A stretch of DNA of 28,038 nucleotides from a virus: positions 1 to 28,038 of IMG/VR virus record IMGVR_UViG_3300042197_001115. One strand, given 5' to 3'. The translations under genes were made by a program, and so were the position numbers. Positions 3,751 through 22,143 of the stretch are shown piece after piece. The first letter of the stretch is position 1. Each line of letters begins with the position of its first letter. The notes under the pieces are model-generated. The model worked only from the letters and a program-made list of their open reading frames with translations, was not told where the DNA came from and did not search any database.

Positions 3751-3827
3751 GCCTCTGTAGCTCAATTGGTTAGAGCAGTGGACTCATAATCCATTGGTTA
3801 CAGGTTCGAGTCCTGTCGGAGGCACCA
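3751..3827 (+). tRNA. tRNA with CAT anticodon (elongator Met or Ile2)
   Basis: Acceptor GCCTCTG/CGGAGGC, anticodon loop CTCATAA, T-loop TTCGAGT, encoded CCA. G1-C72 rules out an initiator. Whether it is Met or the lysidine-modified Ile reading AUA cannot be settled by eye. Confidence 0.93.
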
Positions 3828-4396: not shown

Positions 4397-4474
4397 GCAT
4401 CGGTACCAGAGCGGTCTAATGGCGCGGATTGCAAATCCGTTGATTCGCAGGTTCGAATCCTGCCCGTTGCTCCA
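4397..4474 (+). tRNA. tRNA-Cys (GCA)
   Basis: Anticodon loop TTGCAAA, T-loop TTCGAAT, discriminator T as in tRNA-Cys, encoded CCA. The acceptor GCATCGG/CCGTTGC has a T-T mismatch at pair 4. Confidence 0.9.
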
Positions 4475-4481
4475 ATAAATA
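4475..4481 (+). promoter_or_regulatory. Late promoter motif before the 68-aa gene
   Basis: ATAAATA, preceded by A, ends 5 bases before the ATG at 4487. It starts immediately after the CCA of tRNA-Cys. The predicted start is on the A of ATG. Confidence 0.5.
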
Positions 4482-4486
4482 CATCT

Positions 4487-4693
4487 ATGCAAGTAGATAC
4501 AGTATCACAAGTCTTAGGTTGGGTTAACAACTTAAGAGTAACAGAAACTAGAAACACCTACAATTATGACAAGGGTAATAGTGTTACTATGGTATCAACA
4601 CGTACAGATGCATTTACCATAACAGGATATAATCCTGACGGAACCCCAGTCTCTAATGTTGAGAAGGGTTCCAAAGTAGACGTTAAAGTTTAA
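4487..4693 (+). CDS. Small hypothetical protein (68 aa), probably leaderless
   Basis: A 68-residue protein beginning MQVDTVSQVLGWVNN, rich in Thr, Val and Asn, probably beta-strand, and ending GSKVDVKV. No ribosome site exists, because the 12 bases between tRNA-Cys and the ATG hold only the late motif, so translation would start on the first base of the mRNA. It ends 2 bases before tRNA-Ile. I recognise no family. The frame is short and could be chance, but its late-motif placement matches five other genes in the window, which raises confidence. Confidence 0.62.
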   Translation: MQVDTVSQVLGWVNNLRVTETRNTYNYDKGNSVTMVSTRTDAFTITGYNPDGTPVSNVEKGSKVDVKV

Positions 4694-5065: not shown

Positions 5066-5140
5066 GGTAGAGTAGCATAACGGTAGTGCAACACCTTCAT
5101 ACGGTGCGCTGTGAGAGTTCGATTCCCTCCTCTACTACCA
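5066..5140 (+). tRNA. tRNA with CAT anticodon (Met or Ile2)
   Basis: Acceptor GGTAGAG/CTCTACT with G1-U72, D-stem GCAT/GTGC, anticodon loop TTCATAC, T-loop TTCGATT with one T-stem mismatch, encoded CCA. It lacks initiator marks. The loop differs from the usual CTCATAA, so its identity as Met or Ile2 is open. Confidence 0.85.
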
Positions 5141-6970: not shown

Positions 6971-7543
6971 ATGGAAATCACACTTCGTAAAGCAAATGCA
7001 CTTCAAAACAATGTTAATGACCTACTGAAGGGTATTAGTGTTGTTGATAGTGTAACCCTCAATGAGTTTGAGGATGCTGAGGTAATTCTCAGCAACAAGG
7101 CGCGTGAAGCACGTGTGTCATTCGACCGCCAGGTCGCATTGACTAAAGCACTGTACGATATTCGTACAGAAGTGGCTAACGCTAACCACTTCTCACGCAT
7201 CACAACCATGTTGACTCAGGTTGCGTTGCTTGACAAGTTGATTGGTTTCAATCAGAAAATGGCCGAACGTCAGGTTCGTGTTAGCCCTGAAGTAGTACAG
7301 GGTAAGGTTCAAAAGTTGCGTACAGTAAAGGAAGACAGCCGTATGTCACTGTATGATCGTTTCAATGAATTCACTTCAGGTGTTACAACCGATGCTGAAG
7401 TGAAGGAGTTTAAGGATAGTGTTTCTGCGCTTAAGCGTGAGAAGCAAGCACTTCAGGATCAAATCTTGGAAGCGAATGTAAGCACTAAGGTAAATCTTAG
7501 TGAGGTTACTGCAAACGTTTTGCGTAGCGAAGGTTTGCTATAA
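6971..7543 (+). CDS. Coiled-coil hypothetical protein (190 aa)
   Basis: A 190-residue, almost fully helical protein beginning MEITLRKANALQNNVND, with heptad-like stretches near residues 30-60 and 140-175 (DSVSALKREKQALQDQILEAN), so probably a coiled-coil oligomer. AAAGGTAAT lies before the ATG at 6971; a longer frame starting at 6902 lacks a ribosome site. Codon use looks more balanced and GC-richer than in the AT-rich oxygenase upstream. It has no signal peptide and I recognise no family. Its 3' end carries a perfect late motif for the initiator tRNA. Confidence 0.85.
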   Translation: MEITLRKANALQNNVNDLLKGISVVDSVTLNEFEDAEVILSNKAREARVSFDRQVALTKALYDIRTEVANANHFSRITTMLTQVALLDKLIGFNQKMAERQVRVSPEVVQGKVQKLRTVKEDSRMSLYDRFNEFTSGVTTDAEVKEFKDSVSALKREKQALQDQILEANVSTKVNLSEVTANVLRSEGLL

Positions 7544-7546
7544 ATA
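7539..7546 (+). promoter_or_regulatory. Perfect T4-type late motif in front of the initiator tRNA
   Basis: TATAAATA overlaps the stop codon of the coiled-coil gene. With T4 spacing the transcript starts at 7552, exactly the first base of tRNA-fMet. The tRNA could thus be made with a mature 5' end late in infection. Confidence 0.55.
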
Positions 7547-7551
7547 TATGG

Positions 7552-7627
7552 CGCAGAGTAGAGAAGGTGGCATCTCGTCAGGCTCATAACCTGAAGGTCG
7601 GCGGTTCGAGTCCGTCCTCTGCAACCA
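7552..7627 (+). tRNA. Initiator tRNA-fMet (CAT)
   Basis: Acceptor CGCAGAG/CTCTGCA leaves C1 opposite A72 unpaired, the hallmark recognised by methionyl-tRNA formyltransferase. The D-stem GAGA/TCTC has the A11-U24 pair of bacterial initiators. The anticodon stem is TCAGG/CCTGA, so the usual three G-C pairs are here A-U, G-C, G-C. Loop CTCATAA, discriminator A, encoded CCA. Confidence 0.92.
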
Positions 7628-7631
7628 ATAT

Positions 7632-7709
7632 GCGGGTAGACAGGACAAGGGGCGTCCAGCAGCCTTCCAAGCTGAAGATCGCGGAGTTCGACTCTCCCTA
7701 CCCGCTCCA
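7632..7709 (+). tRNA. tRNA-Gly (TCC)
   Basis: Acceptor GCGGGTA/TACCCGC, anticodon loop CTTCCAA, T-loop TTCGACT, discriminator T, encoded CCA. Confidence 0.93.
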
Positions 7710-7754: not shown

Positions 7755-7830
7755 GGGGGTGTAGCTCAGTTGGGAGAGCGGCGGCTTTGCAAGCCGTAGG
7801 TCGCAGGTTCGATCCCTGTCACCTCCACCA
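7755..7830 (+). tRNA. tRNA-Ala (TGC)
   Basis: Acceptor GGGGGTG/CACCTCC with the G3-U70 identity pair of alanine tRNAs, anticodon loop TTTGCAA, T-loop TTCGATC, encoded CCA. Confidence 0.96.
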
Positions 7831-7986: not shown

Positions 7987-8180
7987 GTGGTAAAGGTAGT
8001 AAACCTAGACCATATAGCGTAGACCAAAAGACCTTTGATAGTAATTGGGACGCTATCTTTGGTAAGAAAAATAAAGAAGAGCCTAAGCAAGAACAAAGCG
8101 GGTATAATTCAGGGGTAGAATGTTTGCTTGCCAAGCAAAATGTCGTCGGTTCGAATCCGACTACCCGCTCCAAATCATAA
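7983..8180 (+). CDS. Small conserved-looking phage protein running through a tRNA gene (65 aa)
   Basis: The first 31 residues (MSGKGSKPRPYSVDQKTFDS and on to WDAIFGKK) match my memory of a small protein seen in many phages, which normally ends soon after FGKK. Here the frame goes on without a stop through all of tRNA-Gly (8098-8172) and ends at 8180. About 26 C-terminal residues are therefore encoded by tRNA bases, including the T-arm read as VGSNPTT. It overlaps the previous gene by ATGA. Translation through the tRNA would compete with tRNA folding and cleavage by RNase P, so the full-length product may be rare. Confidence 0.7.
   Translation: MSGKGSKPRPYSVDQKTFDSNWDAIFGKKNKEEPKQEQSGYNSGVECLLAKQNVVGSNPTTRSKS
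8098..8172 (+). tRNA. tRNA-Gly (GCC), embedded in a coding frame
   Basis: Acceptor GCGGGTA/TACCCGC, anticodon loop TTGCCAA, T-loop TTCGAAT, discriminator T, encoded CCA. It lies wholly inside the 3' part of the gene at 7983, on the same strand. Confidence 0.94.
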
Positions 8181-8183
8181 ATA
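8177..8183 (+). promoter_or_regulatory. Late promoter motif of the GDPD-like gene
   Basis: ATAAATA ends 4 bases before the ATG at 8188, one base closer than in the other five leaderless cases. Confidence 0.5.
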
Positions 8184-8187
8184 CTAG

Positions 8188-8673
8188 ATGCTATTCATAT
8201 CGTATCGTGGTATTTTTGACGGACAAAATTTCGAAGATGAAAATACACCAGACCAAATAGGAAGATCCTTTAATGCAGGATTTTCCTGTATGGTCGATGT
8301 TTGGCGTGTAGACGATAAGATATATTTAGGCAGTGAGCAGCCGTTGGTTGAAGTTACTCCTAGATATTTACAAGGCAATCGTTTTTGGCTTAATGCTAGA
8401 AACAATGATATGTATACATGGTTGCAAGCACAACCCATTAAGTTATATCCTAATTACTTCACAGTACCCAACCCAACACCCAACTATGTAACTACAAGTA
8501 GTGGGCATGATTGGGTGTTTGGTAATGTTCCTACAAACAACAATAGCATTGTTGTATTACCTGAGATACCTGACAGAGGTTTATTCAGTACAGTAAAGTT
8601 GCGCAACTACGGTATTTGTAGTTGTTATCTCACATTCAGTAAACGCTGGCGCAACGAAGGCGTTTGGTATTAA
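8188..8673 (+). CDS. Decayed GDPD-like (TIM-barrel phosphodiesterase) protein
   Basis: A 161-residue protein with the layout of short glycerophosphodiester phosphodiesterase-like proteins: a start like HRG..G...ENT, then a DVW strand, an LGHD-like turn and an HAKN-like strand. But the catalytic residues are changed: Tyr6-Arg-Gly in place of His-Arg-Gly, MVDVW in place of an EIDVW type, LGSE in place of LGHD, and WLNARN in place of an HAKN type; Glu18 of ENTP is kept. It is likely an inactive, binding or structural relative. There is no ribosome site; a late motif is 4 bases before the ATG. Its stop overlaps the stop of the GNAT gene on the other strand. Confidence 0.65.
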   Translation: MLFISYRGIFDGQNFEDENTPDQIGRSFNAGFSCMVDVWRVDDKIYLGSEQPLVEVTPRYLQGNRFWLNARNNDMYTWLQAQPIKLYPNYFTVPNPTPNYVTTSSGHDWVFGNVPTNNNSIVVLPEIPDRGLFSTVKLRNYGICSCYLTFSKRWRNEGVWY

Positions 8674-9119: not shown

Positions 9120-9897
9120 AAGAATTTTCTAATTTATAAAGTAATTTGTTCGGGTGTCCAGGCAGCAACAAATCATCTATATGTGCCCATCGTGTGGTAA
9201 ATGCCATTCTTGGATCCTTCTTAGTGTCATCTAAATCCATGTTGCAATTGACACCGTGATGCACTTCATTGCCGTTCACACATAGACCTGTGTTTATCTT
9301 CGGTCTATAAACGAATCCACTTTCAGACCAAAACTCTCCACCTGTATTTTCTTTTTGATCATCCAAATAAAATGTTACACTAAATGCTTTAGCATAACAG
9401 GCACTTTTAGTGTTAAAATATTGGTCGTTCATATCAAAATGAGAACTTAGAAATTTGTCATATGACAGTACGTTAGCATGCCAACGAATCGGTATCCAAC
9501 AGTTGGGCTCATAATTAAACGGAGGTTGCCCTTCAAAGAACTGCAAGTATTTGTAGAAAACAGGATTGATGTTATTCATCAACCATTTGTTAGACCATTC
9601 TTTAACTGTGTCTTTTGTTTGATAGAACCATTCATCTTCAAACGTTAAATCATATACTACTTGTTGTTCTCTTTTATTAGAGCCATGTGATACAATCTTT
9701 TGATTCTCTCCATCAAAAACAAATGTAGTTCTATGAGTTTTGTATGTTATGGAGTTGTTTTTAAATAAAACCTTAATAGAGTTTTTTAGTTTATTAAAAA
9801 AAGGTTCATCAAAAACATCTTGGTAGATGTATGCATGAACCTTTTTTTCAAACCAATGTACTGAGGCTTTATCTTCTATATACTCAGTTATCTTCAT
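9103..9897 (-). CDS. 2OG-Fe(II) oxygenase (264 aa)
   Basis: A 264-residue protein. The iron site is HxD at His153/Asp155 (SSHFDMND), with the distal His at 213 or 214 (NEVHHGVN) and a 2OG-binding Arg in RMAFTTRW (230 or 236). The strand FSVTFYLDD followed by TGGEFW is typical of P4H-like beta-helix folds. The N-terminal 130 residues form an extra domain that I cannot place. The ATG overlaps the stop of the S8 protease gene (TAATG), so the two are made together. It may hydroxylate a virion or host protein, or a nearby gene's product; this is inference. Confidence 0.85.
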   Translation of the reverse strand: MKITEYIEDKASVHWFEKKVHAYIYQDVFDEPFFNKLKNSIKVLFKNNSITYKTHRTTFVFDGENQKIVSHGSNKREQQVVYDLTFEDEWFYQTKDTVKEWSNKWLMNNINPVFYKYLQFFEGQPPFNYEPNCWIPIRWHANVLSYDKFLSSHFDMNDQYFNTKSACYAKAFSVTFYLDDQKENTGGEFWSESGFVYRPKINTGLCVNGNEVHHGVNCNMDLDDTKKDPRMAFTTRWAHIDDLLLPGHPNKLLYKLENSYDKDM

Positions 9898-11642
9898 TAT
9901 TTAATAGGGGTATTCCAAGTTCCAAAGAAACTGATACTGTTAACATCGGTTAATGCAAGTGTAACATCTGACTCTAATGTATCTTGATACATTGGATTGT
10001 TGTAGAAGAAAAATATAGTATTGGTTTTAACCTTAATTCTTGATGTTGTTGCAACACCAACAAACTTAACCATAACTAATTTAGTTTCTTCAGGCAAAGC
10101 AACTGTAGGTTTTTTAATTGTAATTATACCTGTAGCAGAATCTATTTCTACAAAAGGGCCGTATATTGGATCTTGTGCAGGATCGACCCATTCGACAGAA
10201 TATGATACTGTATCATCTGGATACAATGTTTTAAAATGTTCTATGTCAATAGAACTATTTAAGTCTGCAACAATCGTACTTGTAGGATCAGATGAATGAA
10301 TTCCTAAATATGAAACCATGTCAGCATTTTTATACATTGACATTGGATCAGCGGTGTACAGGTATACTAATCTATTCTGATTCTCGCTGAATCTGTCATC
10401 CTCAAACAGTAGTGCGTGTTCTGTTGCAGTGTTAATAATTGTATTCTTTACAAAATCATAGTAGCATGGAGTACTATTTAAAGCACATATCTCTAATGCT
10501 ACGCCTGCAACTAATGGACATGCAAAAGATGTACCTGAATCAACAGAGTATTGATTGTTAGTGGTGCCATTAGCAACAATTACTTCATCACCGGGTGCAA
10601 ATATATCTAAACTTAAACCAGATGATGTTACAAGACCTGAGTCGCTTGGGCTGATGTTATTGAAGCCTGCAGGGATATCATAACGGTCAGTAGCACCTAC
10701 AGTGATAACGCTATCTAATCCTGCTGGGCTTATATCTTCAACACTGATGCCTGAATTACCGGCAGCGCAAACTACAGTTACACCCGCATCAATCAAACTT
10801 TGAACCTTAGCATCTAACCAACTTGATCTTGCAATACCCCAAGACATATTAACAACTCTTGAGACTGTTGGATTAGAAGAAACTTCAGTAAGAATAGCAT
10901 CAATAGCCATACCTACTTCCATCAAATTGGCAGCATGTGTTGAACTACCGATCTTCACGTTCATTACTTTTGCATTTCTAGCAACACCTAAATTTTTACC
11001 AACTGCCATACTTGTGACAGCAGTTCCGTGACCTACATCATCGGAGAAGTCTCCGTTAAACACAGGCAGACTATAAAAATTTACTTTAATTAGACCATCA
11101 TAATCAAATTCTTGGTGATTAAAATTGATACCTGTATCCATAACATAAAATTCTGGAGTGCTTAAATGGTTGAGTTCATGGATACTGAAACTGGATAATA
11201 GAGGACGATATCTACTTGCTACACGAATTCTTGCCCATTGACCATCAGCAGAAAGAGGGTCAACTGAAGAGGGTGTGCCGTTCATAGCAGTAATGTTACT
11301 GACTGCTAGATAGGTCATAGGTTGACTGTTAATGTCAATAGATTCTACATGACCGCTAAGATTTACACCGTCTGTTGTAGATACTAAGAAGAAGCCCATT
11401 CCTAAATCTTGTTTAATAGTAGCATGTTGGGCTATGGTATCACGATCACCCTTTACAATAAACTCATGCTCTGTTGACGTATCCAATGCGGTCGCATTAG
11501 AAACACTGTCATGGTTTTTAACGTGATTCAACAGGTGCCATGGCACATCTAAATGATCTACCCCTGCAGGCACTTCAAGTTTGAATCTGTCAGCAAAGGC
11601 ATCACGTTGTTCGGTGCCGCTGAAATTCACTCTTATGGTCAT
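9897..11642 (-). CDS. Subtilisin-like serine protease (peptidase S8)
   Basis: A 581-residue protein with a complete S8 catalytic set: Asp169 in YVMDTGIN, His205 in VGHGTAVTS, oxyanion Asn296 in AAGNSG, and Ser372 in SGTSFACPLVAG. Residues 1-150 come before the protease domain and may be a propeptide or a virion-docking part. Residues after about 430 form a beta-rich C-terminal domain. There is no signal peptide, so it acts in the cytoplasm or is carried in the virion. The start has a good ribosome site (GGAG) and a late motif upstream at 11669. First gene of the protease-oxygenase-GNAT operon. Late timing would fit head or tail protein maturation, or attack on host surface proteins. Confidence 0.95.
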   Translation of the reverse strand: MTIRVNFSGTEQRDAFADRFKLEVPAGVDHLDVPWHLLNHVKNHDSVSNATALDTSTEHEFIVKGDRDTIAQHATIKQDLGMGFFLVSTTDGVNLSGHVESIDINSQPMTYLAVSNITAMNGTPSSVDPLSADGQWARIRVASRYRPLLSSFSIHELNHLSTPEFYVMDTGINFNHQEFDYDGLIKVNFYSLPVFNGDFSDDVGHGTAVTSMAVGKNLGVARNAKVMNVKIGSSTHAANLMEVGMAIDAILTEVSSNPTVSRVVNMSWGIARSSWLDAKVQSLIDAGVTVVCAAGNSGISVEDISPAGLDSVITVGATDRYDIPAGFNNISPSDSGLVTSSGLSLDIFAPGDEVIVANGTTNNQYSVDSGTSFACPLVAGVALEICALNSTPCYYDFVKNTIINTATEHALLFEDDRFSENQNRLVYLYTADPMSMYKNADMVSYLGIHSSDPTSTIVADLNSSIDIEHFKTLYPDDTVSYSVEWVDPAQDPIYGPFVEIDSATGIITIKKPTVALPEETKLVMVKFVGVATTSRIKVKTNTIFFFYNNPMYQDTLESDVTLALTDVNSISFFGTWNTPIK

Positions 11643-14721: not shown

Positions 14722-14728
14722 TATTTAA
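14722..14728 (-). promoter_or_regulatory. Late promoter motif of the oxygenase/Asn-synthetase operon
   Basis: On the minus strand TTAAATA, then TTCAT, then ATG. The predicted start is on the A of the ATG at 14716. It lies back to back with the early promoter at 14733. Confidence 0.5.
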
Positions 14729-14732
14729 TCGG

Positions 14733-14761
14733 TTGACAAATAACCTATAATTTGTTATTAT
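14733..14761 (+). promoter_or_regulatory. Sigma70 promoter of the phosphoesterase gene
   Basis: TTGACA (14733-14738), 17-base spacer, TATTAT (14756-14761). It starts the rightward early block. Confidence 0.82.
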
Positions 14762-14781
14762 ACTATATTAAGGAGAGTATC

Positions 14782-15348
14782 ATGCCTAGCGTATTTTTAA
14801 CTAGCGACACACATTTTGGGCATTTAGGTGTTTGCCATTTTACACGTAGTGATGGTGTAACTAAGTTACGCCCATGGGATACTCCGGAAGAAATGGATGA
14901 AGAAATGGTCAAGCGTTGGAACGAAGTTGTGAAGCCCAACGACAAAGTGTACCATTTAGGTGATGTGGTTATCAACCGCCGTGCTTTAAAGACATTACAC
15001 CGATTGAACGGTGATAAGGTATTGATCAAGGGTAACCATGATATCTTTAAGTTGAGTGATTACACGGAACACTTTAGAGATATCCGAGGATATCATGTCA
15101 TGAACGGTATGATCTTAAGTCATATCCCAATGCATCATGAATCACTGGGTCGATTTGGTGTCAACATTCACGGTCACTTACATGCTAATCGTGTTTTAGA
15201 CAATCATGGTAATGTTGATGTTAGGTACCATTGCGTTTGTGTTGAACAGACCGATTTTAGACCTATCTTATTTGAGGATGTTATCAAACGAATCAAAGAT
15301 GAAGGTGGTACAGTTGGTATGCGTAGTGGTAACGGTCCTATCATGTAA
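14782..15348 (+). CDS. Calcineurin-like metallophosphoesterase
   Basis: A 188-residue protein with every family motif intact: DTHFGH (Asp9, His11), GD (Asp61), GNHD (Asn85, His86), SHIP (His114) and HGHLH (His130-His134 region). These residues hold two metal ions to hydrolyse phosphate esters; small phage members of this type may act on cyclic or nucleotide phosphates, but the substrate is not known. AAGGAGAG lies just before the ATG at 14782; an upstream in-frame ATG at 14752 falls within the promoter and is rejected. It contrasts with the motif-poor relative at 11731. Confidence 0.93.
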   Translation: MPSVFLTSDTHFGHLGVCHFTRSDGVTKLRPWDTPEEMDEEMVKRWNEVVKPNDKVYHLGDVVINRRALKTLHRLNGDKVLIKGNHDIFKLSDYTEHFRDIRGYHVMNGMILSHIPMHHESLGRFGVNIHGHLHANRVLDNHGNVDVRYHCVCVEQTDFRPILFEDVIKRIKDEGGTVGMRSGNGPIM

Positions 15349-15355
15349 ATAAATA
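15349..15355 (+). promoter_or_regulatory. Late promoter motif of the HExxH gene
   Basis: ATAAATA begins directly after the upstream stop codon and ends 5 bases before the ATG at 15361. Confidence 0.5.
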
Positions 15356-15360
15356 TTCTG

Positions 15361-15780
15361 ATGCAAGTCAAAATATTTTATGCTAAAGGACTGTATGATA
15401 GTAACAAAGAAAGCCTAGCCTGTAAGATTGTCGAGCAGGCTAGGACTCATATAACGTTACCTGACATTGTTGAAATTGAATTTCAACGTATGGGCCCTAG
15501 CATGTACGGACAAACTGATGTATCACGCAAAAGGATCACAATCAATTTCGATTTAGATTTAAACGACATTTTTATACCCCTATTGCATGAACTAATTCAC
15601 TTAGAGCAGATACACACAGGGAAGTTGGCCAAGAGTCGAGAGGGCAAGTATGTGTGGGAAGGGGCTGTATACAGGGTCGATCCTGCAAGAATGTTGTATA
15701 AAGACTACAGTAAACTTCCATGGGAACTAGATGTTGCTAAAAAACAACAAGATTTGCTGGAAAAATTGCTTAAAAATTAA
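15361..15780 (+). CDS. HExxH zinc metallopeptidase-like protein
   Basis: A 139-residue protein with LLHELIHLEQ (His76, Glu77, His80), the zinc-protease active helix, and a later PWELDVAKKQ where Glu122 probably gives the third ligand, an arrangement seen in small phage and plasmid HExxH proteins. The fold before it (a beta-hairpin MGPSMYGQTD then ITINFDLDL) fits a minimal metallopeptidase. No signal peptide. There is no ribosome site and the late motif is 5 bases upstream, so it is probably leaderless and late, although it sits in an early block. The substrate is unknown. Confidence 0.82.
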   Translation: MQVKIFYAKGLYDSNKESLACKIVEQARTHITLPDIVEIEFQRMGPSMYGQTDVSRKRITINFDLDLNDIFIPLLHELIHLEQIHTGKLAKSREGKYVWEGAVYRVDPARMLYKDYSKLPWELDVAKKQQDLLEKLLKN

Positions 15781-15793
15781 GCACTTACAAGGC

Positions 15794-15822
15794 TTGACAA
15801 ATAATCAATTTGGGCATATAAT
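15794..15822 (+). promoter_or_regulatory. Sigma70 promoter giving a leaderless GIY-YIG mRNA
   Basis: AGGC-TTGACA (15794-15799), 17-base spacer, TATAAT (15817-15822). The predicted +1 is 15829, the A of the start codon. Confidence 0.88.
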
Positions 15823-15828
15823 ACACAT

Positions 15829-16161
15829 ATGCTGAAAACACGTAAACGCAGGTCTGATCGTAATCAGGTCATCTACTACATTGAACATGTAGCAACTGGC
15901 GATTATTACATTGGTCTTACTGCACTTAACTACAACGGTAACGTCAAGCGTACTTTACACCGTCGCATGCAAAAGCATTGGCAACGTGCTTTGACAGAAA
16001 ACAAGACTTGGGGCCTATCACGTGCCCTGCGCAAGTTTGGCGCCGAGGCTTTTGTATATGGTGTTGTAGAGGTTGTGCGTGGTAAGAAGGCTGCTCATGC
16101 AAAGGAAACTGAATTAATTAATACATATCAGCCCCGGCTAAATACTTTTGGAGTCAAGTGA
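15829..16161 (+). CDS. GIY-YIG nuclease
   Basis: A 110-residue single-domain protein: YYI (16-18) and YIG (27-29) form the name motif, Arg46 lies in the HRRMQKHW helix as the catalytic arginine, Glu93 in KETELI is the metal ligand, and Asn105 closes the fold. The enzyme cuts DNA by a one-metal mechanism. No DNA-binding domain is attached, apart from a basic N-terminus (KTRKRRSDR). It may be a homing nuclease, a repair nuclease or a host-DNA attack enzyme. No ribosome site fits before the ATG, which is the predicted first base of the mRNA. Its stop overlaps the next start (TGATG). Confidence 0.9.
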   Translation: MLKTRKRRSDRNQVIYYIEHVATGDYYIGLTALNYNGNVKRTLHRRMQKHWQRALTENKTWGLSRALRKFGAEAFVYGVVEVVRGKKAAHAKETELINTYQPRLNTFGVK

Positions 16162-19479: not shown

Positions 19480-19505
19480 TTGTTGTTTTTAAACAACAAT
19501 TTTCT
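19480..19505 (+). terminator. Possible weak terminator
   Basis: TTGTTGTTT (19480-19488) pairs perfectly with AAACAACAA (19491-19499) and is followed by TTTTCTT. The stem is AT-rich and the loop very tight, so efficiency is doubtful. Confidence 0.4.
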
Positions 19506-19509
19506 TGCC

Positions 19510-19569
19510 TAAAAAGGCTTGACAATAAATCGATTTGGGTTTATAATACATAGTATTGAAACTGATAAA
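19510..19569 (+). repeat. 60-base promoter/leader direct repeat, copy 1
   Basis: Matches 21055-21114 in 59 of 60 bases by eye (T against C just before the -10 box). It contains the promoter and the leader ATAGTATTGAAACTGATAAA. A third, less exact copy begins at about 21625. Confidence 0.85.
19519..19547 (+). promoter_or_regulatory. Sigma70 promoter in repeat copy 1
   Basis: TTGACA (19519-19524), 17-base spacer, TATAAT (19542-19547): a perfect consensus. Confidence 0.92.
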
Positions 19570-19581
19570 CAGGAAACAGAA

Positions 19582-20031
19582 ATGAATTGCAATGTTACTC
19601 TGACCGCTGAAGAATTCAAGACCATTCACAACACCCTCTGGGCTATGGAATATAAGGGCATGGATTCTAAGACGGCCGCTGAAAAAATCCGTGAGGCACT
19701 TAGCGGTGCGTATGCTCAGGAGAGCAAGGCATTCAGTACTAAGTCCGATCATTTTGATCAGGTCAAGAAGGATCTCGGCCTCTCTGCAATTTGGTCAATC
19801 TATGAGGTTGACAATCTTAGCGACCGTCATACGTTTGAGGGTGTGACCCGTGTGGTCTACAAGGATCATTGGGGTAGCCGTCAGGTTTCAACCGAAATCA
19901 ACGGTGGCACTTGGGCCGCTCTCTATGTTGCGGCTAATGCTTGCATCCGTGACAGTGGCGATGACCATCATGTTTTTATTGAGAATTTCAAGAAGTTTGG
20001 GGACACCCTAATTCTAAGTACCGGATCTTAA
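19582..20031 (+). CDS. Hypothetical protein (149 aa)
   Basis: A 149-residue protein starting MNCNVTLTAEEFKTIHNTLW, with a helical N-terminal half and a mixed C-terminal half (SIYEVDNLSDRHTFEGVTRV, then GGTWAALYVAANACIRDSGD). The ATG at 19582 follows AGGAAA by 6 bases; an earlier frame start at 19519 lies inside the promoter. Codon use is GC-richer than the methyltransferase gene downstream. It is probably a highly expressed early protein, since it has a perfect promoter. No family recognised. Confidence 0.85.
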   Translation: MNCNVTLTAEEFKTIHNTLWAMEYKGMDSKTAAEKIREALSGAYAQESKAFSTKSDHFDQVKKDLGLSAIWSIYEVDNLSDRHTFEGVTRVVYKDHWGSRQVSTEINGGTWAALYVAANACIRDSGDDHHVFIENFKKFGDTLILSTGS

Positions 20032-20039
20032 GTTTAGTA

Positions 20040-21032
20040 TTGTCAATCGTGCAAACCCATAGAATTTTTAAAAATAATCATACCATAAACTATGCAGAAT
20101 TATTTAACGATAGTTGGCGTAATAGATTTTTTCAAAAAGCACTCATTAAACACGCCTATAATAAAGTAGTATTGGATATGGGTACTGGTACTGGTATACT
20201 AGCATTTTATGCATTGTCAGCCGGAGCCAAATTTGTTTACTGTATTGATGTGGATTCAAAAAGTTGCGCCATAACAGAAAAGTTACTATCTAAACAATTC
20301 GATAAGTCTAGATTTAAAGTAATAAATGGGAACTTTTGGAGTAATCACATATTTGGTTGGCATAATAATATAGATAATACTATAAACCATGAAATCGACA
20401 TATTAGTGACAGAGACAATAGGTCCTGGTTTATTTGATCAAGGAATGTTCCATACGTGGCATTATATAAAACCATTCTTATCTAAAGAAGCCATTAGCAT
20501 TCCTGATCGTTTACACGCAGATATTTGGTTTTGGAATAAAGATAATTTTGATCTAGAATCAAACCCAAAAAATACTATTATTTGTGATAATCTGTTAGAT
20601 AAAGATTTGGCTAAGGCTATGATTGAAATTGATATTGAGATTAGAGAATTTTACGCCTCAATAAGTATGGAATGGGTAAATATTAATGCGATAAAAAATT
20701 CCCCATCTAAAATATATAAAGATATTTTTAGTTACGGAATGCATGAAATGCCAAATCTATTGTTCCACTCAAATCGTTATCCTAAGGTTAATCATATTAT
20801 ACCAAACATATCATTTGATCTAATCATAGACAAACCCGAAAAACTATCGATAGTTAACAAATTATCATTTGAGCAGGAAACTCTCTATATAAAAGATGCA
20901 ATGTATATGCCTTGGCAAGAAAATCCCTTATTCCACATTGAACACCCTGGTCAATACCAATTCACTTATAGTAATTTCGATTTAATACATAAATTCACTA
21001 GTGAATGGGTATGTACCAGTCTAAGTCATTGA
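20040..21032 (+). CDS. PRMT-like SAM-dependent methyltransferase
   Basis: About 330 residues. The SAM loop is VLDMGTGTGILAFYALSAGA (Gly48, Gly50, Gly52) with CIDVD as the acidic end of strand 2. DILVTETIGPGLFDQGMF resembles the double-E loop of protein arginine methyltransferases: Glu125 is kept, but the second Glu is Asp or Gln. KPFLSKEAISIPD fits the start of the PRMT barrel. The target could be a host protein, but with the second Glu changed, Arg specificity is doubtful. The start is unclear: TTG at 20040 or GTG at 20049, neither with a ribosome site. Strongly AT-rich, and flanked by the two 60-base repeats, so probably a recent insertion. Confidence 0.75.
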   Translation: MSIVQTHRIFKNNHTINYAELFNDSWRNRFFQKALIKHAYNKVVLDMGTGTGILAFYALSAGAKFVYCIDVDSKSCAITEKLLSKQFDKSRFKVINGNFWSNHIFGWHNNIDNTINHEIDILVTETIGPGLFDQGMFHTWHYIKPFLSKEAISIPDRLHADIWFWNKDNFDLESNPKNTIICDNLLDKDLAKAMIEIDIEIREFYASISMEWVNINAIKNSPSKIYKDIFSYGMHEMPNLLFHSNRYPKVNHIIPNISFDLIIDKPEKLSIVNKLSFEQETLYIKDAMYMPWQENPLFHIEHPGQYQFTYSNFDLIHKFTSEWVCTSLSH

Positions 21033-21054
21033 TTTATAATAAGAAAAAAGTTGC

Positions 21055-21114
21055 TAAAAAGGCTTGACAATAAATCGATTTGGGTCTATAATACATAGTA
21101 TTGAAACTGATAAA
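21055..21114 (+). repeat. 60-base promoter/leader direct repeat, copy 2
   Basis: Near-identical to 19510-19569. The two copies bracket the genes at 19582 and 20040, so recombination between them would remove both as one unit. Confidence 0.85.
21064..21092 (+). promoter_or_regulatory. Sigma70 promoter in repeat copy 2
   Basis: TTGACA (21064-21069), 17-base spacer, TATAAT (21087-21092): a perfect consensus. Confidence 0.92.
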
Positions 21115-21126
21115 GAGGACTTGCAA

Positions 21127-21426
21127 ATGACTACGATTCAAGATGTTAATACTGCTATCATGTTTGGTGACTTCACTAATGACCAGTTGAATTCAATTCT
21201 TGGTGCTATAAAGTTCCGTAGGGGCCAAATCACTAAGGAAGTTAAGCGAGGCTTGACTATCGGTGAGAAGGTCAAGTTTGTCAATAGCCGAACTGGTGGT
21301 GTTGTTATTGGTAATGTGACCAAGGTCAATCGCAAGTTTGTGATTGTGCGTGAGGCTACTAAGGCTAATGGATTTTTTGCTACCCAGTGGCGAGTCCCTG
21401 CTAGCATGTTGGAAGTGACAGAATGA
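21127..21426 (+). CDS. Hypothetical protein with a KOW/SH3-like middle (99 aa)
   Basis: A 99-residue protein, MTTIQDVNTAIMFGDFTNDQ... The middle, LTIGEKVKFVNSRTGGVVIGNVTKVNRKFVIVRE, reads as a small beta-barrel of the KOW/Tudor kind (G-V-x-G-x-V turn) often seen in RNA or ribosome binders. The last part ends VPASMLEVTE. GAGGA lies 9 bases before the ATG at 21127; the earlier frame start at 21064 is in the promoter. The stop overlaps the next gene (ATGA). Confidence 0.8.
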   Translation: MTTIQDVNTAIMFGDFTNDQLNSILGAIKFRRGQITKEVKRGLTIGEKVKFVNSRTGGVVIGNVTKVNRKFVIVREATKANGFFATQWRVPASMLEVTE

Positions 21427-21593
21427 GTAAGATGAGCGATATTAATATCCAAATTCAGGAGTATCTGATGCAGGGTGTGGAACCAGAGAAGGTTGCAAAA
21501 CTGCTAAATGTGCCCCTAATTTGGGTTACGGACACGCTAGATTCCATGATGGAAAGCGATGAACCGGACTTTACTTACGGACAGGAACTGTAA
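21423..21593 (+). CDS. Small HTH-like protein (56 aa)
   Basis: A 56-residue protein too short for routine calling, starting MSKMSDINIQIQEYLMQGVE. The stretch VEPEKVAKLLNVPLIWVTDT looks like a helix-turn-helix of the kind found in small DNA-binding proteins, followed by an acidic tail (MMESDEPDFTYGQEL). It overlaps the upstream stop by ATGA, so translation is coupled. It could be a small regulator, but the acidic tail could also mean a DNA mimic or inhibitor. Confidence 0.75.
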   Translation: MSKMSDINIQIQEYLMQGVEPEKVAKLLNVPLIWVTDTLDSMMESDEPDFTYGQEL

Positions 21594-21632
21594 GTTGTTG
21601 ATTTGCAACAGGAAAAAAGTTGCAAAAAAGGC

Positions 21633-21661
21633 TTGACAAATAATCGGTTTGGCTGTATAAT
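21633..21661 (+). promoter_or_regulatory. Sigma70 promoter of the LPD29-like gene
   Basis: AGGC-TTGACA (21633-21638), 17-base spacer, TATAAT (21656-21661). The leader shares ATAGTATTGAAACTGA with the two repeats. Confidence 0.92.
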
Positions 21662-21696
21662 ACATAGTATTGAAACTGAGAAAACGGAGATACGAA

Positions 21697-22143
21697 ATGG
21701 CTTACATGAATCAGGAACGCAAAGCAAAGATCGCACAAGCCCTCAAGCCTGTATTGGCTAAGTATAAGGTCAAGGGTACGCTAAGTGTCCGCAATCATAT
21801 GGCAATCTGTCTGACCCTCAAGTCTGGTCCTATCGACTTTATCGGTAACAGCAACCGTGTCTGTGGTTCTAGTCACTATCAGGTGTCACGTGGTTTTCGC
21901 CCCAACACTAGTAACTATTCTGATGTAAACCCTTACTGGTTTCAGGATCACTACGATGGTGTTGCTAAGGATTTCTTGACCGAGGCTTTCGCCGCACTCA
22001 AGTCTGCTGATTATTATGACCGTAGCGATGCGATGACCGATTATTTCGACACCGCATACTATTACGATCTCCATATCGGTAAGTGGAACAAGCCCTACCA
22101 ATTGACGGGCACTCCTGATTCTTGGGAAAAGGTCACAGTATAA
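21697..22143 (+). CDS. LPD29-like phage protein
   Basis: A 148-residue protein. The C-terminal pattern YYDRSDAMTDYFDTAYYYDL, then HIGKWNKPYQL is that of a domain found alone in phages and inside very large polyvalent proteins (LPD29-like). The first part has a KVKGTLSVRNHMAICLTLKSG beta-hairpin and an IDFIGN turn. No catalytic residues are evident. CGGAG lies 6-7 bases before the ATG at 21697. It is followed directly by a membrane microprotein whose start overlaps the stop (TAATG). Confidence 0.8.
   Translation: MAYMNQERKAKIAQALKPVLAKYKVKGTLSVRNHMAICLTLKSGPIDFIGNSNRVCGSSHYQVSRGFRPNTSNYSDVNPYWFQDHYDGVAKDFLTEAFAALKSADYYDRSDAMTDYFDTAYYYDLHIGKWNKPYQLTGTPDSWEKVTV

Follow-up and report, generated by a model that had tools for sequence, protein, structure and literature searches.

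An initiator tRNA gene behind a T4-type late-promoter motif in a phage genome fragment: a candidate for late initiator supply

An initiator tRNA gene among the 21 tRNA genes of the window

The window, i.e. the whole stretch of DNA analysed, is a virus record of 28,038 bases with 21 tRNA genes, which constitute a near-full tRNA set, and three of these genes have the anticodon CAT. One of the three, located at 7552-7627 on the plus strand, was called by both ARAGORN and Rfam (57.2 bits) and reads CGCAGAG TA GAGA AGGTGGCA TCTC G TCAGG CTCATAA CCTGA AGGTC GGCGG TTCGAGT CCGTC CTCTGCA ACCA, the CCA being encoded. The absence of a Watson-Crick pair at 1-72 is the formylation signal of bacterial initiator tRNAs, and the acceptor stem found here (CGCAGAG/CTCTGCA) places C1 opposite A72. 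The D stem GAGA/TCTC gives the pair A11-U24, and the anticodon stem TCAGG/CCTGA gives A29-U41, G30-C40 and G31-C39. Thus, two of the three initiator G-C pairs (29-41, 30-40 and 31-39) are present and 29-41 is A-U, and both the anticodon loop CTCATAA and C39 are normal.

The earlier note had assigned this tRNA to the initiator class, and a class check supports the assignment. Against a profile built from 98 distinct bacterial initiators collected in a scan of bacterial genomes, the tRNA scored 50.7 bits, and no other tRNA of the window exceeded 18.2; the Escherichia coli controls metT and ileX reached 13.6 and 16.0 bits with the same profile. On sequence grounds, the 7552-7627 tRNA is a true initiator. 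The second tRNA(CAT), at 3751-3827 on the plus strand, was rejected as an initiator on account of its G1-C72 pair and its score of only 18.2 bits; it is of the elongator Met or Ile2 type (identity of 0.79 to metT and 0.78 to ileX of E. coli). The third, at 5066-5140 on the same strand, has the loop TTCATAC, did not match the initiator profile and is of the elongator type (0.71 identity to metT).

Upstream of the initiator lies a gene for a protein of 189 aa (6974-7543, plus strand) to which no family could be assigned, searches of PHROG, Pfam and NCBIfam being without match. Downstream, a tRNA-Gly(TCC) at 7632-7709 begins 4 bases past the initiator and is therefore probably part of the same transcript, and a tRNA-Ala(TGC) follows at 7755-7830, both on the plus strand. 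The initiator also shares its strand with the upstream tRNA array and gene, and it may be produced by read-through from them. The array itself contains an HNH endonuclease gene (1356-1919; 2.2e-24 to phrog_16726).

The A29-U41 pair is ordinary among bacterial initiators

The earlier note had suggested that the A29-U41 pair may tune entry into the P site. A special status of the pair was not supported, since it occurs in 20 of 122 (16%) initiator-pattern matches from bacterial genomes, alphaproteobacterial ones included; carriers are found in Bradyrhizobium, Agrobacterium, Microvirga and Pelagibacteraceae. The pattern fixes C1, G2, C3, G7, A11-U24 and the loop and leaves the anticodon stem free, so that this count is not biased by the pattern. 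We consequently rejected A29-U41 as an adaptation of the window phage. As a separate observation, initiators of viral arrays (e.g. L003 9742-9816, L412 and L018) frequently lack the full set of three G-C pairs: position 29-41 is other than G-C in 25 of 40 versus 24 of the 122 bacterial matches, and C39, which adjoins the anticodon loop, is lost in 8-9 of the 40 versus 2 of the 122. The neighbourhood of the anticodon loop, where this viral loss occurs, is the region targeted by VapC-type nucleases.

A late-promoter motif is positioned at the 5' end of the initiator

The sequence TATAAATA, a T4-type late promoter motif resembling a -10 element, occupies positions 7539-7546 on the plus strand, and transcription is predicted to begin at about 7551-7552. 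Base 1 of the initiator (7552) is the sixth base past the motif, i.e. the gap is 5, and the two bases directly 5' of C1 are G G. The motif overlaps the last codon and the stop (CTA TAA, stop at 7541-7543) of the upstream gene. By eye, no -35-like hexamer was seen in the window 16-18 bases before TATAAA. TATAAATA occurs four times in the window versus 4.26 expected, a chance frequency; the evidence for a promoter is the position of the motif, not its number. For ATAAATA at a gap of 4-5 before any of the 21 tRNAs of the window, ∼0.008 cases are expected.

Three gene starts of the window show a comparable spacing on the plus strand. CATAAATA and 4 further bases (8176-8187) precede the ATG at 8188, and AATAAATA and 5 further bases precede the ATGs at 4487 (4474-4486) and 15361 (15348-15360). 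Two of these leaderless-type starts, at 8188 (AATAAATACTAG ATG in the relative L003) and at 15361, are conserved in L003 with the same gap. Upstream ATAAATA sites lie at a gap of 4-5 to an ATG in 3 of 7 cases in the window, 7 of 11 in the related contig G002, 22 of 51 in G015 and 10 of 32 in G017; the overall number of ATAAATA is below expectation (21 versus 31 in G002, 131 versus 238 in G015). A late promoter whose transcripts begin with the A of the start codon would give such a pattern; in several large phages (the window phage, G015 and G017), the motif ATAAATA with an ATG 4-5 bases past it marks a group of genes that are likely leaderless and late, and elsewhere in these genomes the motif is less frequent than expected. 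In the genes at 2759 and 9897-11642, the motif lies 26-30 bases upstream in both the window phage and L003, indicating that late genes with leaders exist too.

Base 1 of the initiator shares the register of these gene starts (gap 5 versus gene gaps of 4-5). If the initiator is started like the leaderless-type genes, transcription would begin on 7551 (G) or 7552 (C). Since bacterial RNA polymerase prefers purine start bases, a start on G(-1), with a leader of one base, is no less likely than a start on C1. A transcript beginning exactly on C1, as the earlier note had it, is open to doubt, since C makes a poor start base, a G stands at -1 and the gaps in relatives range from 3 to 9. With the gap of 3 in one group, the usual start would fall 1-2 bases inside the tRNA. 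Moreover, the base before C1 is mostly T in the phages with gaps of 3-4, which fits RNase P processing of longer transcripts and argues against a strict start rule.

Conservation and recurrence of the motif-initiator pairing

When the protein of the gene preceding the initiator (6974-7543) was used as query, three relatives were found, at 96%, 72% and 45% identity. The closest (L002/L005) has the same arrangement as the window. In L003 (72% amino acid identity), CTATAAATA and the initiator are retained with a gap of 4, the initiator has A29-U41 and U31-G39, and a tRNA-Arg(CCT) follows in place of the tRNA-Gly. The most distant relative, L004, has neither an initiator tRNA nor the motif at this locus; its version of the upstream gene has a different last codon and stop and is followed by a terminator-like hairpin. 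The motif is therefore not forced by the protein.

Viral stretches with ATAAATA upstream of an initiator numbered 28 for gaps of 2-9 bases and one for gaps of 10-17. With the window included (n = 30), the gaps were 3 (nine rows), 4 (seven), 5 (five), 6 (two), 7 (four), and 8, 9 and 16 (one each), so that 21 rows have gaps of 3-5; by flanking sequence, counted by eye, the motif-bearing initiators fall in roughly 17 groups. Thus the late motif that had been described five bases before base 1 recurs in L003 and in many other phages, and its placement is not that of chance. As a control, we used elongator tRNAs with TAGCTCAG, where the motif is present in at least 120 stretches. Among the 94 distinct flanks examined, the gap was 2-9 in 63 and 10-17 in 31, and TATAAATA stood most often at gaps 7, 9 and 10. 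A gap of at most 5 was seen for ATAAATA in 21/30 initiators versus 22/94 of the elongators examined (p = 6e-6), and for TATAAATA in 13/19 versus 3/34 (p = 1e-5); after hand clustering of flanks, the latter comparison became 7/12 versus 3/28 (p = 0.003).

In samples drawn regardless of the motif, a gap of 2-9 was found in 3 of 199 viral initiators versus 5 of 848 other tRNAs (p = 0.18). A universal pairing of late motif and initiator is ruled out by the 3 of 199; the pairing recurs as a trait in some phages and is not general.

A late sigma factor and comparison with known systems

A gp55-like late sigma factor was detected in 4 of the 20 tested contigs with the pairing (G010, G012, G015 and G023). 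No gp55 gene was found in the nearest relatives of the window or in G001, G002 and G003, all of them fragments; G002, of 54.5 kb, encodes a head maturation protease (phrog_94) and a dCMP deaminase, and no late sigma factor was found there. G012 matches the cultured Agrobacterium phage Atu_ph07. In the record of this phage (L018, NC_042013), which has a gp55-like sigma factor, TATAAATA is located 6 bases before an initiator tRNA, near 303,600, and a translation initiation factor is annotated at 244-747. According to its published description (PMC6102473), the phage has 33 tRNAs, 16 T4 core homologues and a late sigma factor; IF3 genes have been mentioned in a few jumbo phages (PMC7824862).

The arrangement resembles a T4-type (gp55) late promoter in its motif (TATAAATA or NATAAATA, the latter published for T4-like cyanophages as their late motif (PMC2984593)), in lacking a -35 element and in the gp55-like sigma factor of some contigs with the same arrangement. 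However, here a tRNA or an ATG stands at the predicted start and not well downstream of it. With bacterial tRNA-fMet and its phage copies (one is annotated as tRNA-fMet in Stenotrophomonas phage vB_Sm_QDWS359), the window tRNA shares C1xA72, A11-U24, the CTCATAA loop, G30-C40 and G31-C39; it differs by A29-U41, common to many Alphaproteobacteria, and by the late motif at its 5' end. A further parallel is Nanoarchaeum equitans, which has leaderless tRNAs and no RNase P, and in which an extra G-1 serves as the start of a C1 tRNA (PMC3491384): as in its leaderless tRNA genes, the promoter is placed for RNA to start at the tRNA end, a start that is predicted in the present case, and a G precedes C1. 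Unlike in N. equitans, the bacterial host has RNase P, the tight placement is found at the initiator only, and the 5' end is a prediction from sequence. A search of the open-licence literature brought up no account of a phage initiator tRNA with a late promoter at its 5' end.

Late supply of initiator tRNA and alternative explanations

We consider it fairly probable that the initiator tRNA stands under its own T4-type (gp55) late promoter, with a start no more than about 2 bases from the mature 5' end, and that it provides a late top-up of fMet-tRNA. The motif would set RNA polymerase to start at or within 1-2 bases of this end, and the predicted late transcript would carry the initiator, then Gly and perhaps Ala and the genes beyond. 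Such a transcript would yield an initiator tRNA without a 5' leader or with a leader of 1-2 bases. fMet-tRNA would then be topped up late, while virion proteins are made, and the leaderless messages of the lineage would be favoured most. Extra initiator tRNA strongly raises the translation of leaderless mRNA and only mildly that of messages with leaders (PMC9031893), which makes the link that the earlier note drew between initiator supply and leaderless late genes a reasonable one. As a requirement, the link does not stand, the co-occurrence being mixed. Both the pairing and genes of the leaderless type are present in the window, G002, G015, G017, G021 and G022, whereas the pairing was found without ATAAATA-N4-5-ATG genes in G009, G010, G023 and Atu_ph07 (400 of 490 kb read), and in L196 and L275, each with at least two leaderless-type genes, the initiator is not preceded by the motif. 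The four cases of pairing only rule out, as a general rule, that the pairing needs leaderless genes beside it.

The late promoter could be real and yet not be aimed at the initiator, a possibility to which we give some, though clearly lesser, weight. It would then drive the initiator-Gly-Ala block and the genes beyond from a start 1-3 bases upstream, and host RNase P would trim the product. The closeness of the tRNA-Gly agrees with this, as do the G G at -2 and -1, which are better start bases than C1, the T at -1 in many initiators and the short leader left by gaps of 6-9 (8/30 initiator rows and most elongators examined). However, between relatives the motif and the initiator are constant and the downstream tRNA changes (tRNA-Gly or tRNA-Arg), and the motif is closer at initiators than at elongators. 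A further case, which we regard as improbable, is that there is no promoter, an AT-rich spacer and a stop codon (CTA TAA ATA) giving the motif by accident and the tRNA being cut from a long array transcript. TATAAATA is indeed at chance frequency in the window, the final codon and stop of the gene before it contribute five of its bases, and most viral initiators are without motif; but an accident has against it the ratio of 28 to 1 between gaps of 2-9 and 10-17, the 0.008 cases expected in the window, the three bases past the stop that are retained in L003 and L004, which ends the same gene without the motif.

Two other alternatives concern purpose and timing. The tRNA might replace host initiator tRNA destroyed during infection, by VapC-type nucleases or by general tRNA decay, and not serve leaderless translation, which we hold to be rather unlikely. 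VapC toxins cut tRNA-fMet, and phage tRNAs have been proposed to counter tRNA depletion (PMC10264068); the frequent loss of C39 in viral-array initiators, the near-full tRNA set of the window phage and the pairing in phages without leaderless-type genes point in this direction. Against it, the window tRNA retains the normal CTCATAA loop and C39, and Shigella phages generally avoid encoding tRNA-fMet (PMC10264068). It is very improbable that the motif is the -10 element (TATAAA) of a host sigma-70 promoter and the tRNA early instead of late: TTGACA does lie 17 bases before TATAAATA at the initiator in the four related contigs L407, L408, L414 and L418, but the window has no such -35, its early-type promoters read TTGACA-N17-TATAAT (one stands at 19519) and no -35 accompanies the NATAAATA sites that precede its genes.

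A bolder form of the preferred reading, late initiator supply from a dedicated promoter, is that a group of large phages makes the late initiator tRNA as a primary transcript from tRNA base 1 (or G-1), bypassing RNase P, and that the resulting surge of fMet-tRNA turns ribosomes to leaderless late messages with the same promoter and register; this we regard as unlikely. A start truly on base 1 would mean a tRNA produced with no 5' leader in bacteria possessing RNase P. The shared register and the closer placement at initiators were unexpected. A late promoter fused to the initiator would suggest a timed, testable role for the initiator tRNAs that phages carry, and Atu_ph07 offers a cultured test case of the arrangement.

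Additional promoter and RNA features

Host-type promoters of the form TTGACA-N17-TATAAT, strong and with a shared spacer, recur in the window at 14725-15850 and 19500-21700, ahead of small genes of early type; examples stand at 19519 and 21064. In L407, L408, L414 and L418, the initiator is the only listed tRNA of each contig and lies behind TTGACA-N17-TATAAATA, a promoter that might be usable by both the host and the late sigma factor; the contig of L408 (G023) carries a clear gp55 homologue. Finally, a tmRNA gene (tag ANDEQFALAA, with an ARAGORN asterisk flag) is present at L011 4118-4489, in the tRNA array of a 146 kb phage contig.
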